Assembly (NCBI RefSeq): GCF_000243335.1
Contig: NZ_JH597773.1
Location: forward strand, 3,742,115 to 3,806,114
Direction: 5' to 3'
DNA from: Leptonema illini DSM 21528
GTDB taxonomy: Bacteria > Spirochaetota > Leptospiria > Leptospirales > Leptonemataceae
Length of the DNA: 64,000 bases
Positions 1,163 to 5,806 of this stretch are shown one piece after another. The position numbers and the translations under genes were made by a program. How positions within the stretch are numbered: the first letter of the stretch is position 1; the number at the start of each line of letters is the position of its first letter. The notes beneath the pieces are model-generated. The model saw nothing but the letters and a program-made list of their open reading frames with translations. It was not told the DNA's origin and ran no database searches.

Positions 1163-1257
1163 GGAGTCTTTATTCTGTGGAAGCTCTGTAAAGACAATAA
1201 ATTATGGATCCTGCGGAATCGGGAAAATGAGGGGGGGGCGTATGACCGTGCTTTTTT

Positions 1258-1290
1258 TTAACCTCAGAGGTCGCGGAGGACGCAGAGAAA
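1258..1290 (+). repeat. Short repeat R, left flank of the GxxExxY gene
   Basis: Reads TTAACCTCAGAGGTCGCGG followed by AGGACGCAGAGAAA. A copy in the opposite orientation lies just 3' of the GxxExxY gene (1766-1790), and further copies fill 1835-2485. The repeats therefore bracket the gene as inverted ends. Seen directly by eye; no alignment was run. Confidence 0.75.
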
Positions 1291-1359
1291 AATACGAGTC
1301 GTTTGACCGGTGTTGAACCTATACCGGTTATGAGAGTAGAAAAATCCAAAAAGGATGGC

Positions 1360-1749
1360 ATGTGGATTGAGCCTGATCCAGAACTGACCGGTGTCGTTAT
1401 CGCTTCGGCAATAGAGGTGCATCGGTATTTTGGGCCCGGATTGCTTGAGAGTGTGTATGAGTCTGCCCTGTTTCTGGAGTTGCAACAAAGATCAATTCAT
1501 TCGAAAAGACAGGCACCCGTGCCGGCCCTTTACAAGGGGGTCGACCTGGGAACGGGCTTTCGTGCTGATTTGATCGTTGAGAACAGCCTTTTGCTGGAAA
1601 TCAAGACAGTTGACACGATTCATTCAGTACATCTGGCGCAGGCGTTGAGCTATATGAAAGCGTTGCGGTTCAGGCGCGGCCTGATTCTGAATTTCAATGC
1701 GCCACAACTCCGCCTGGGTATCAAACGAGTATCATTGGCTCCTTCATAA
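1360..1749 (+). CDS. GxxExxY family protein
   Basis: A 129-residue protein of the GxxExxY family (PD-(D/E)xK-like fold in PF13366). Motifs: GPGLLESVYESAL (the name-giving GxxExxY), a central ADLIVENSLLLEIKTVD that fits a D...ExK nuclease-type active site, and HLAQALSYMKALRFRRGLILNF near the end. The cellular role of the family is not established. The start at 1360 is chosen because AAGGA precedes it at a suitable distance; ATG 1330 and TTG 1303 are in frame but lack a ribosome-binding site. Inverted copies of a short repeat flank the gene, and a repeat array follows it. Confidence 0.8.
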   Translation: MWIEPDPELTGVVIASAIEVHRYFGPGLLESVYESALFLELQQRSIHSKRQAPVPALYKGVDLGTGFRADLIVENSLLLEIKTVDTIHSVHLAQALSYMKALRFRRGLILNFNAPQLRLGIKRVSLAPS

Positions 1750-1765
1750 CCCGGTCTATTAGAGT

Positions 1766-1790
1766 CTTCCTCTGCGACCTGTGTGGTTTA
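1766..1790 (-). repeat. Short repeat R, right flank of the GxxExxY gene
   Basis: On the minus strand it reads TAAACCACACAGGTCGCAGA then GGAAG, matching the repeat at 1258-1290 apart from a few bases and in inverted orientation. It starts about 15 bases after the GxxExxY stop codon. Confidence 0.7.
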
Positions 1791-1834
1791 CACTCTTCTG
1801 GCTTCTTTTAAGCGAAAAAAGAAAAGAAGAAATA

Positions 1835-2485
1835 ACCACGGAGGAAGGCAGAGAGAAGGGTAAGAGTTTTTTACCGCGAAATACACGAAAGGTGCGAAAG
1901 AAATCCAGGGCCCTTGATCCGTTTATCGATCGTATCTTCTCTCCGTGTCTCTGTGGTAGATTGTTCTGATTTTTTCGCAGCATCGCAGCAAAGAGGTTTA
2001 ACCGCGGAGGGCTCTGAGGGCGCGGAGGCAGAAGTGGAGTGGGGTAAGGCCTTTCAGCACGCGAGCGCTTCTCTATTCCGGATCGTTTTCGCGTATTTCG
2101 CGCTTTTCGCGGTCAAAAGGATTTTCTTACCGCTAAATACGCGAAAATCGCGAAAGAAGAGGGGAGAATCTAACGGTACCGATATTGAAAACCCTATCAC
2201 TTCTCCCGACTTTCCTTCTGGATTTCTCCGCGACCTCAGCGTCCTCTGTGGTGGATTGTTCAGATTTTTCTCGCAGCATCGCAGCAAAGAGGTTTAACCG
2301 CGGAGGGCTCGGAGGTAAGAGGTCGGTGAGATTTTCCAGTATAATCAGCCCTGTTATGTGATTTGTGCCTGATCGGATCGTTTTCGCGTATTTCGCGGTT
2401 CAGGGATTTTTCTGCTCTTTCTATATATGCAGCAAGCCAACAGAAGCGATGAGGCGCTATTCACACTGATCTCTCTCTGTGCTCT
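1835..2485. repeat. Array of two interleaved repeat families (R and S)
   Basis: This stretch has no convincing gene. It holds alternating, oppositely oriented copies of two short repeats. R (ACCACAGAG/CGCGGAGG type) occurs at about 1835-1858 (+), 1935-1960 (-), 1996-2032 (+), 2224-2256 (-), 2292-2320 (+), and as a split copy ending at 2485. S (ACCGCGAAATACGCGAAA type) occurs at about 1870-1900 (+), 2080-2118 (-), 2128-2160 (+) and 2375-2404 (-). Neighbouring copies face each other, so long hairpins could form in RNA or single-stranded DNA. Open frames here are made by the repeats and lack family similarity. Confidence 0.75.
1950..2398 (+). repeat. Imperfect direct duplication with a period of about 295 bp
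   Basis: The block from TCTGTGGTAGATTGTTC at 1950 to about 2019 recurs at 2245-2315, with GCAGCATCGCAGCAAAGAGG identical in both. The block GGATCGTTTTCGCGTATTTC at 2080 recurs at 2375. Both offsets are about 295 bases, so the array seems to have grown by duplication of a whole module, while the sequence between the matched blocks differs. Confidence 0.75.
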
Positions 2486-2530
2486 GTAGAGTAGAGAGGG
2501 TGCCGGAAATCCGGCAGCCCTCCCCCTCGT

Positions 2531-2565
2531 CAAACCGGACGTGCAGATTTCCCGCATCCGGCTTT
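2531..2565 (-). ncRNA. Group II intron domain V
   Basis: The minus strand shows AGCCGGATGCGGGAAATC, then TGCACGTCCGGTTT. This folds into the typical 34-nt domain V hairpin with the AGC catalytic triad at its base, a GNRA-like GGGAAA tip region and a two-base bulge on the 3' side. It lies between the reverse transcriptase stop and the 3' splice site, as expected. Domain VI is the following GC-rich stem (about 2490-2530). Confidence 0.8.
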
Positions 2566-2587
2566 CACGAATACCTGTTTCACTGCG

Positions 2588-3931
2588 TTAAGCATAGGAT
2601 AGGAATTGCAGCCCCTGTTTCCTCAAATAGGAATTCCAGGTGTCACCCTCCGGGAGCTTCGTCTTACGCTGGCTTTTCCTCGTGAGGAATTTCCAGAATT
2701 TCAGATGGAGATAGTAGTTTACTTCGCTGTAGGCTCTCTTGCGGTATCCCACTGCGAAGTAGTTATCCCATCCTCTGAGCGTGCGATTCAGCTCTGCGAT
2801 GGCCTGATCCACCGGTTTATAGGAGTTCCTGTAGGAGAGGAATTCGTGTATTTTCCCTTTTAGATTCTTGACGGATTTCTTTGACGGATAAACATTCAGG
2901 CATAGATAGTTCCTGTGATGGATTCCTTTTTCGTACCGGAAGGAGAAGCCGAGGAAATCAAGAATCGGGCCTGTCGTTCGCAGATCGACCCACCTTGTTT
3001 TCTCTCTGTTTATCGTCAGACGGAATCGTGTTTCAAGTAGATCCTCAAGATGATGGATCATCTCTTTCATCGGTTCCTTCATCAAGATCACGAAGTCATC
3101 CGCATAGCGTACAATGGATGCCTGAATCTTCCTGCTCGTAGTCATGGCATGGAAGTATTTCTCGAAGTGATGGAGGTAGATGTTGGCGAGAAGCGGCGAG
3201 ATGACGCCTCCCTGAGGCGTGCCTATCGTGCTTTTGTGCCATTTCTTCTTTCCATTCTCATCGACATCCACTATCGTCGCTTTCAACCACATACGAAGCA
3301 GCTTCAAAACGGATCGATCAACGATTCTTCTCTCGACTGCCTTCATGAGATTGTCATGCGGGATGGTATCGAAATAACCCTTCAGATCCGCGTCATAGAC
3401 AACACGCTTGCCTCCTTTCAGTTCAGACCGTATCGCTTCAACGGCATCATGTGCCGAACGACCCGGTCGGAAACCGTAAGAGGTGTCCAGAAAATCCGCC
3501 TCGAAGATCGGTTCGATGATCAGGAGGACGGCCATCTGGATAACGCGGTCTTTGATGGTGGGGATTCCAAGGGGTCTTTTCCGACCATCCTTCTTCGGAA
3601 TGTACACGCGTTTAACAGGGTCCGGACGATACGTTGATTCTTTCAGGCTGATTAACAGTCCCTCAAGAAATCCATCCACACCGTCTTTTCTCTTTTCAAT
3701 GTCCTCAAAGCTGATTCCGTCGATGCCCGGCGCACCCTTATTGGCCCTTACTCGTTTCCACGCAGATTCAAGGGTGTCCTTCCTGAGCACATGGCCGTAC
3801 AGCGAGTAGAATCGAAACTTTGCTTCCGCTTTTGCTTTGTGAAAGAGCTTCGTTCTCAAAAGAGAGAGGTCCGCAGAGAGTCCCCACTGGTTTAGCGGGC
3901 AGTAGTCTGCATTTTCCGTAGTAGTTTCCAA
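2588..3931 (-). CDS. ltrA: Group II intron reverse transcriptase/maturase
   Basis: A 447-residue intron-encoded protein that binds its intron RNA, helps it splice and copies it into DNA targets. Order of features: N-terminal RT0/RT1 region with ANKGAPGIDG (about residue 64), IPKKDGRKRPLGIPTIKDRV (RT2), SYGFRPGRSAHDAV (RT3), DADLKGYFDTIPHD (RT4), GTPQGGVISPLLANIYLH (RT5-6), catalytic YADD near residue 277, then a maturase (domain X) region with LNRTLRGWDNYF. No HNH endonuclease domain follows. The start is TTG at 3931 with AGGAG about 10 bases upstream. The frame looks intact, so the element may be active. Confidence 0.95.
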   Translation of the reverse strand: METTTENADYCPLNQWGLSADLSLLRTKLFHKAKAEAKFRFYSLYGHVLRKDTLESAWKRVRANKGAPGIDGISFEDIEKRKDGVDGFLEGLLISLKESTYRPDPVKRVYIPKKDGRKRPLGIPTIKDRVIQMAVLLIIEPIFEADFLDTSYGFRPGRSAHDAVEAIRSELKGGKRVVYDADLKGYFDTIPHDNLMKAVERRIVDRSVLKLLRMWLKATIVDVDENGKKKWHKSTIGTPQGGVISPLLANIYLHHFEKYFHAMTTSRKIQASIVRYADDFVILMKEPMKEMIHHLEDLLETRFRLTINREKTRWVDLRTTGPILDFLGFSFRYEKGIHHRNYLCLNVYPSKKSVKNLKGKIHEFLSYRNSYKPVDQAIAELNRTLRGWDNYFAVGYRKRAYSEVNYYLHLKFWKFLTRKSQRKTKLPEGDTWNSYLRKQGLQFLSYA

Positions 3932-4399
3932 TCGGTCTTTCTCCTCATCTGAATCAGCTTGTATTCGTCAAGCCTCCTTCGCTCCATCGGAGTTACCCGA
4001 CTTCGACGCTACTATGAAGCTCTCCGACTTCCCTTCCTGACCGCCCGACGGTTATTCATTCCCGCCGGACGTTTGCTGGCGCATCAGGAGGGATCTCCCA
4101 GGTTCCTCGCGTTCGCCTTACATGCGCGCTGTCCTCCAAGACCCCGGATAGCTCCGTGGCGGTGAGCGATTGTTGACCGCTCACGGATGGCAGGCTTCAC
4201 CATCACGGACAGGTTGGCCGCTATCAGTTGAGTAACGAGGCTGAATAGGTTCGCTTTCGCTACGGCTCGCATGTTCATTTCCCGTGGCTTCGGCCTTTCG
4301 GTTGCCCTATGACCGCACGGTTCCTTAACCGCCGAACAATCAATTAGCGGTCCAGGGACGTTTCACCCTGGTGGCTCACACAGGCTTATCCTGGCGCAC

Positions 4400-4416
4400 C
4401 CGCGATCTCTGTGGTT
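4400..4416 (-). repeat. 5'-exon half of the R repeat interrupted by the intron
   Basis: Minus-strand sequence AACCACAGAGATCGCGG ends exactly at the proposed intron start. Together with AGAGCACAGAGAGAGATC (2485 downward) it rebuilds a repeat of the type found at 1258-1290. Seen directly; identity as one split copy is an inference from the joined sequence. Confidence 0.65.
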
Positions 4417-4430
4417 GACCCTTTGACTTT

Positions 4431-5069
4431 TTACTCCTGCAAGACGGCGCGGATGCGACGGTGGATCTCGTCCAGCCCGAGTTTGTGAGTGGAGCTTACC
4501 GGAACGCTGATCTCGGGAAGCGGATCTTCTTTCTGCCATCGTCTGTGTGCGGCAGATCGTTCTTTTTGATTGAGTCGATCCCAGCGGCTGCGGGCGACGA
4601 AGAACGGCCGCTCGATAGACAGGCTGTGCTGCATGAGCGATAGCTCTTCTTCGCCGGCGTCACGCTTTGCGTCGAGCACGATGATCGTCAGGCGAAGATG
4701 CTTCTCTTTCAGAATATAGCTGCGGATCATCTCATGCAGCGCCGCCACTTCTTTCTGTGGAAGCTTCGCATAACCAAAGCCGGGAAGGTCGACGAGATAG
4801 AACTCCGGATGATCCGATCCGGCGGGAACATAGAAATAGTTGATGAGTCTTGTCTTTCCAGGAGTCTTCGAGATCTTTGCAAGGTCTTTCTGTTCACAGA
4901 GCGCCGATATGAGTGATGACTTGCCGGCGTTGGAGCGACCGGTGAAGGCGATGGCAGGAATCGGAGCGACATCACTTTTTGCCACGGCGCCGGCCGTCGG
5001 AAAAGAACGAAAGAAGCGTGCCTGACGGAAGGGCTCAAAGGTATCGCGCATAGGTGCATTTTTGCGCAT
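4431..5069 (-). CDS. engB: Ribosome-biogenesis GTP-binding protein EngB (YsxC/YihA)
   Basis: A small GTPase needed for assembly of the large ribosomal subunit. G1 is GRSNAGKSS, G3 is DLPGFGYAKLP, and G5-like VSSTHKLGLDEI is near the end. The G4 motif, normally TKxD for guanine choice, reads SRWD here, a conservative but unusual change. The chosen start (MRKNAPMRDTFEP, 5069) leaves room for a divergent promoter toward the lipoprotein gene at 5132; a start at 5051 is equally possible and an upstream in-frame ATG at 5150 would overlap that gene. The length of about 212 residues suits the family. Confidence 0.9.
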   Translation of the reverse strand: MRKNAPMRDTFEPFRQARFFRSFPTAGAVAKSDVAPIPAIAFTGRSNAGKSSLISALCEQKDLAKISKTPGKTRLINYFYVPAGSDHPEFYLVDLPGFGYAKLPQKEVAALHEMIRSYILKEKHLRLTIIVLDAKRDAGEEELSLMQHSLSIERPFFVARSRWDRLNQKERSAAHRRWQKEDPLPEISVPVSSTHKLGLDEIHRRIRAVLQE

Positions 5070-5131
5070 GAGCCTGTCCCGGCAATGGTTTCTCTTGACC
5101 GTCAGTCGGGCCAGATAGGATACATGCCTGT

Positions 5132-5806
5132 ATGCGCATGAAAAGGCCATTTTTGAACATCGTATTCTATTCTGCTCTGTTTTCCCTCGCCGGGTGTCAG
5201 ACGCCTCCTCTGTTGAAAGACTCTTCCGTAGCCCTTGAAGTGTATGTATTGCCCGTTACGATCGACGGGTATGCGGTGAACATGGACGAAGCTGATGATG
5301 TGCGCCTCGTGCTCGATCGTCGTATTCCTGAACTTGTTGCAAGAAAGCTTGATGATGCCGGCGTGCTCTGGAAATCAGGCAGCCTTACAGAAGAACAGAG
5401 AAAATTCATCGGGCGTTATGTCGAAACCATGCGATACGTCGACTACCTGACCGATGAACAGAGACTTGAACTTGAGGCCGAGGCGATGCAGCTGTGGCCT
5501 GATCCGGCAATCGTTGTTTTTCCTCTTATTGAAAAGAAGGATGTGCGCTTACAGACAGGTTTACACATGCTGCTCTGCGTGCTTGCTGTGGCGGCCCGAT
5601 CATCGCCAGGAAATCCACCACTGGAAATCTCCATGGATCTTGGCCTCTTTGTCCGCCGCGACCACGGACACCGCCCCATGCAACTGGAATGGACATCAAA
5701 GCCGTTACACCGGATGCGAGATGTACTCGGCTCTCAAGGTTATCTGAAATTCCTCGATACTGAATTGAATTCCGTGATCCCCCTGAAGCAAAAGCGTATG
5801 CCGTAA
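5132..5806 (+). CDS. Lipoprotein of unknown function
   Basis: A 224-residue protein with a lipoprotein signal peptide: basic MRMKRP, a hydrophobic core, and the lipobox LAGC with Cys22 as the lipidation site. No family is recognised for the mature part, which is rich in acidic residues and contains VVFPLIEKKDVRL and a C-terminal WTSKPLHRMRD. It is probably anchored in the outer or inner membrane facing the periplasm. A TTGACC about 37 bases before the start may be a -35 box. The gene is divergent from engB and is followed by the cyanophycin cluster after about 100 bases. Confidence 0.75.
   Translation: MRMKRPFLNIVFYSALFSLAGCQTPPLLKDSSVALEVYVLPVTIDGYAVNMDEADDVRLVLDRRIPELVARKLDDAGVLWKSGSLTEEQRKFIGRYVETMRYVDYLTDEQRLELEAEAMQLWPDPAIVVFPLIEKKDVRLQTGLHMLLCVLAVAARSSPGNPPLEISMDLGLFVRRDHGHRPMQLEWTSKPLHRMRDVLGSQGYLKFLDTELNSVIPLKQKRMP

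Follow-up and report, generated by a model that had tools for sequence, protein, structure and literature searches.

A group II intron of Leptonema illini DSM 21528 lies within a copy of a short dispersed repeat, here called R, which raises the question of whether the intron recognizes R as its DNA target. We addressed this question starting from a 64,000-nucleotide stretch of the genome (the window), for which a sequence-only reading had proposed a partnership between the intron and R. The partnership was borne out and proved wider than proposed: a second intron occupies the other strand of R, and relatives in several phyla include some that use R as well. Judging from the sequence comparisons below, we consider it very probable that this is a mobile group II intron, encoding an endonuclease-less maturase and targeting R in DNA.

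Results

The minus strand of window positions 2486–4399 (intron A; Table 1), exactly the interval given by the sequence-only reading, is on its sequence a complete group II intron with an intact RT/maturase ORF. The Rfam model RF00029 was matched in full (49.4 bits; window 2486–2566, minus strand), and the intron, read from 4399 to 2486, begins with GTGCGCC and ends with CTCTAC. Domains V and VI of the window copy were predicted to fold with −46.2 kcal/mol (z −6.3), leaving the A at 2492 bulged. The maturase carries YADD, and a profile search matched no HNH family in it. Intron A thereby combines the features of mobile group II introns: domains V and VI, boundary motifs, branch-point A, RT and maturase domains, and EBS–IBS pairing. 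The upstream EngB/YsxC ORF is a plausible candidate for the origin of a transcript that would read through into the intron.

Table 1 Features in and around intron A (window coordinates)
Feature	Coordinates	Strand	Details
Group II intron A	2486..4399	minus	1914 nt, 5′ end 4399; RF00029, boundary motifs and two more genomic copies
Domains V (2532-2564) and VI (2489-2528)	2489..2564	minus	Predicted fold, bulged branch-point A at 2492
Intron-encoded RT/maturase	2588..3931	minus	447 aa, TTG start; TIGR04416 399 bits, RVT_1, GIIM
EngB/YsxC GTPase ORF	4431..5150	minus	TIGR03598 154.6 bits; ends 31 nt upstream of intron A, same strand
5′ half of split R copy	4400..4416	minus	AACCACAGAGATCGCGG; contains IBS1 and IBS2
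3′ half of split R copy	2460..2485	minus	AGAGCACAGAGAGAG...; +1 = A
R-rich island adjoining intron A	1256..2330	both	R arms; two repeat units ~295 bp apart
EBS1 (predicted)	4203..4208	minus	CCGTGA, intron nt 192-197; pairs TCGCGG at −6..−1, 6 pairs including one G-U
EBS2 (predicted)	4230..4232	minus	CTC, intron nt 168-170; pairs GAG core of R at −10..−8
EBS3 (predicted)	4139..4139	minus	U, intron nt 261; pairs A at +1

Joining the minus-strand flanks 4400–4416 and 2485–2460 gave AACCACAGAGATCGCGG^AGAGCACAGAGAGAG, in which the R motif runs across the junction with 0 mismatches. Thus, as had been proposed, the intron splits one copy of R and its splice sites fall within the repeat. The motif was settled after A, the second intron B and some relatives were already known; 60 of 20,000 random positions in a sample of the own genome fitted it with at most one mismatch (0.3%; 0.25% at the relatives' loci, 20,000 draws each). 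R had also been described as present many times, and its core, AACCRCNGAGR, occurs 122 times in the genome as against 10 occurrences of a reversed-pattern control; a three-unit pattern of 24 nt occurs 89 times (control, 1). The repeat is built of ~9 bp units, AACCRCNGAGNNCNCRGAG...; an initial pattern, AACCRCRGAGGNNNNNRGAG, had 2 matches and was dropped as too strict. R neighbourhoods make up about 0.8% of a random 400-kb sample of the own genome, in which 19 of 44 R matches lie within crude ORFs (at least 100 aa). Among the first 100 R cores listed, neighbours within 500 bp were convergent at 11, divergent at 5 and in the same direction at 17. These figures bear on R as a possible REP- or MITE-like element, which would be mostly extragenic and carry its arms as inverted pairs.

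Several further observations concern the repeat itself. R subtypes with CRGAG and CGCGAAA units of ~9 bp occur at window 1864–2400 as facing arms, with units ~295 bp apart, and a tandem run of at least 14 units is found elsewhere in the genome (G000:C1:569803-569925). A GxxExxY (PD-(D/E)XK) gene at 1330–1749 sits between inverted R arms (window 1256–1790), and the one further GxxExxY gene that the genome contains is beside inverted CACGAAA-type arms (L160, 1450–2400). R and GxxExxY might form a REP/RAYT-like pair, given that two of two such genes in this one genome adjoin such arms. No paper describing R strings was found in the open-licence literature.

We searched the genome for further introns. 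At the DNA level, three copies of intron A (100%, 100% and 99%) and seven of a second intron, B, were recovered; a search for the RT/maturase family found exactly ten group II RT genes, namely those of the three A and seven B copies. The intron-encoded proteins of A and B are 52% identical. The expectation that more copies would be found at R was confirmed at non-collinear sites: all ten insertion junctions are R, nine of them by a formal two-unit motif with at most one mismatch and the tenth (L002) with two. The A junction reads AACCAC(N)GAG..GG^AG on one strand of R; that of B, CTCCGTG..CTCCG^TGG, is on the opposite strand and at another position. Two A copies, L001 and L002, are identical; of the seven B copies, six have the full length and carry no more than one substitution. 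The junctions of these copies are unrelated. These identical copies at different sites show a recent spread of the introns. The seven B copies vary at one position only: there, a one-base deletion in L007 (G000:C1:1814445) breaks the maturase frame, and L008 varies at the same position.

The intron-sense strand is the G-richer one in nine of the ten copies, the exception being the window copy. Orientation was considered as a sign of RmInt1-like lagging-strand homing and dropped, because empty B-type sites on contig C1 are similarly skewed (14 of 20 on the minus strand). Over most of the stretches sampled on C1 the GC skew is weakly negative, but it is positive near 1.3 Mb and again beyond about 3.7 Mb. 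A simple two-replichore pattern would look different, and the contig order or orientation may be wrong.

We then asked whether the introns carry exon-binding sites that fit R. In a blind covariation scan, all stretches in the 5′ part of the intron were scored for their pairing with all exon stretches, with permuted exons as the reference, using A, B and 19 relatives whose 5′ junction could be read (21 introns; L085 was excluded as a near-duplicate, and an earlier run had used 17 introns). Three signals in a consistent antiparallel register emerged: EBS1, from intron A nt 192 onward with the exon upstream from −1 (z 9.6); EBS2, from nt 168 onward with about −8 to −12 (z 4.4); and EBS3, nt 261 with +1 (z 5.3). 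At EBS3, 18 of the 20 introns having a 3′ exon pair with +1, one forms a G-U and L098 is unpaired. The same scan gave additional, weaker single-base signals (z 3.3–4.1). The pairing check suggested by the sequence-only reading thus came out in its favour, as the sites found blind are predicted to pair with the R-derived exons of the window copy (EBS1 6 bp, EBS2 3 bp, EBS3 1 bp); in the other two A copies, by manual count, EBS1 pairs at only 4 of 6 positions. In intron B, the predicted EBS1, CGGAG, pairs with CTCCG. Two other candidates were rejected: EBS3 at the T/A of a GTTAC loop, where the blind scan placed EBS2, with EBS3 at nt 261; and EBS1 of B in GTCGGAG...CATAGTAG, a conserved stretch that does not vary with the exons.

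Relatives were sought in one genome per species, and the best 80 of 335 were kept; 68 of these loci plus A and B make up the 70 rows of the maturase tree, the other 12 being duplicates or too short. A, B and every R-located intron fall in one 33-row clade (support 98/88), whose hosts include Bacteroidota, Cloacimonadota, Planctomycetota, Chlamydiota, Kiritimatiellota, Ignavibacteriota, Spirochaetota and others. The R motif was scored in 21 clade introns with both junctions read (L085 was included; L154, having no 3′ junction, was not). Eight are at the motif with at most one mismatch (A, B, L081, L082, L090, L091, L094 and L095) and 13 fail this rule. Among the latter, L087, L089 and L098 (the same element as L051) have two mismatches and L099 three, which are weaker fits; L083, L084, L085, L088, L093, L096, L097, L105 and L110 score as non-R (3–5 mismatches), although L097 has CGGTTAA and L093 TGGTT in the 3′ exon. 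R-like sites are used by relatives with retuned EBS in several phyla. Introns that use R do not group together among the tested rows of the tree. L084, L085 and L144, of a rumen subclade, lie directly after ATG (5′ junction near 2483), which may be a start codon; the clade is therefore able to take non-R sites. For L086, just TG is visible at the contig end.

R itself exceeded its control in five of the six hosts, other than L. illini, of the introns at the motif (G107, 8:0; G117, 45:1; G108, 11:0; G102, 11:1; G101, 5:1); in the sixth, G116, which hosts L090, the tested patterns revealed no repeat (0:0). Of two other R patterns, one showed no excess in G101 and G108 and the other none in G101, G102 and G117. 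R-type strings were present in 17 of 61 genomes. In a weak outgroup control, in which both ends were available for 6 of 14 introns, none was R-like (4–5 mismatches). Among near relatives of L. illini, 20 of 100 genomes matched the maturase at all, and most had no close one. Viral contigs gave distant or partial RT relatives only (best, 47% over part of the query), and the best 5000 plasmid records were all below 60% identity.

Intact, unoccupied targets are still present in the genome, 22 of the B type and 5 of the A type, as against 0 and 0 for the reversed-pattern controls. Most copies in one repeat family, with empty copies of it left, is the way of life of RmInt1, and it is what we found here.

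Occupation of R need not mean that R is specifically targeted, since introns that accept loose IBS matches anywhere would survive mainly at harmless intergenic sites, and R could be a frequent intergenic carrier of the IBS. The B pattern GTGN1-3CTCCGT occurred at 12 sites in the 400-kb sample, 3 near R and 9 outside it, and 7 of these 9 fall in ORFs on a crude map; R already makes up a large share of the IBS sites outside ORFs. EBS pairing and the loss of harmful insertions explain part of the R pattern, and selection against genic insertions may contribute. However, none of the ten insertions lies outside R, two different EBS sets fit R while other EBS of the relatives fit R variants, and the B sites are constant past the IBS, with CTCCG upstream and TGGT downstream in seven of seven. 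This constancy points to extra recognition at B sites, perhaps by the maturase, and we consider it unlikely that R is not specifically targeted.

The copies might instead have arisen mainly by recombination or duplication of intron-bearing R islands rather than by retrohoming, and the flanks of several copies do share R-island similarity of up to 89% over 377 bp. The common blocks, however, are displaced or inverted with respect to the junctions, and collinearity does not extend across these, so that we read the copies as separate insertions; the immediate flanks differ as well, as do the R variants found at the junctions, making this origin very improbable. Another account holds that the introns are of class C type and read structure such as terminator-like hairpins, R being picked for its folding and not for its sequence. 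The best solved-structure matches of the maturase include GsI-IIC (6ar1, 202.6 bits) and 7uim (203.2 bits), and relatives from Bacillales in the tree sit immediately downstream of T-rich sequences that resemble hairpins, as read by eye. Yet no terminator-like site was found at the window copy on the minus strand of 2380–4520, and the introns enter R at fixed points of its sequence. To our knowledge, class C introns are without EBS2 pairing, which was detected here over 21 introns, and we regard this account as very improbable.

Discussion

We favour the reading that A is a mobile group II intron with R as its DNA target. From the anatomy, the near-identical copies at different sites and the covariation, we infer that the intron would splice and retrohome. 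The intron RNP would read the R site through EBS2 (3–4 bp), EBS1 (5–6 bp) and EBS3 (1 bp), and intron B would do so on the opposite strand of R and at another position. Splicing of the window copy would join AACCACAGAGATCGCGG to AGAGCACAGAG. The low cost of insertion would be the reason for using R.

Group II introns often nest in intergenic regions or other mobile elements, according to PMC8919778. RmInt1 and RmInt2 of Sinorhizobium meliloti home to IS elements, ISRm2011-2 and the inverted repeats of ISRm17; they resemble A and B in having an endonuclease-less maturase, in coexisting as two related introns on multi-copy mobile targets, and in being present more than once per genome (strain GR4 has 10 and 7 copies) (PMC5894124). 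In contrast to the S. meliloti pair, A and B use one short repeat, on opposite strands, which relatives in other phyla use as well, and R is no known IS. In Pseudomonas putida KT2440, PMC1525189 places two of nine group II introns in REP sequences, which are short dispersed extragenic repeats, as R may be too; here the figure is ten of ten, with a fit at the EBS level and relatives in other phyla. The review PMC4424553 lists the specificities known in bacteria as homing sites, terminators and attC sites. The class C introns it treats, at terminators and attC sites, share with ours an endonuclease-less maturase and many harmless sites per genome, whereas in our case EBS1, EBS2 and EBS3 would read a sequence repeat and not a terminator hairpin. 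The nested introns of Methanosarcina acetivorans likewise have a repeated element as a lasting homing site (PMC4424553); the harbour there is other introns, and here a non-intron repeat. In the open-licence literature, we found no paper naming both L. illini and group II introns; among titles concerned with introns inserted into REPs, inverted-repeat elements, or intergenic or dispersed repeats, none dealt with the R pattern.

Intron homing into multi-copy elements is already known; what is new is a cross-phylum lineage on an apparently undescribed repeat with a 9-bp period. We tentatively put forward a wider reading, which may well not hold: the lineage would cross phyla because the R landing pad, present in unrelated bacteria, does so, transfer would need only small EBS changes, and two introns would share a genome by each using a different strand of R. 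On this reading R would serve retroelements as a general harbour and might be maintained by its own dedicated system, both GxxExxY genes of the L. illini genome being beside R-like arms.

The clade would offer a natural example of a retroelement linked to a dispersed bacterial repeat through base pairing, and it draws attention to R as a widespread repeat. EBS1, EBS2 and EBS3 rules are now supplied for the clade; since the sequence reveals the EBS, one can trace across phyla how intron and R, parasite and harbour, are tuned to each other. Our results suggest a possible route by which multi-copy introns may persist without disrupting genes.
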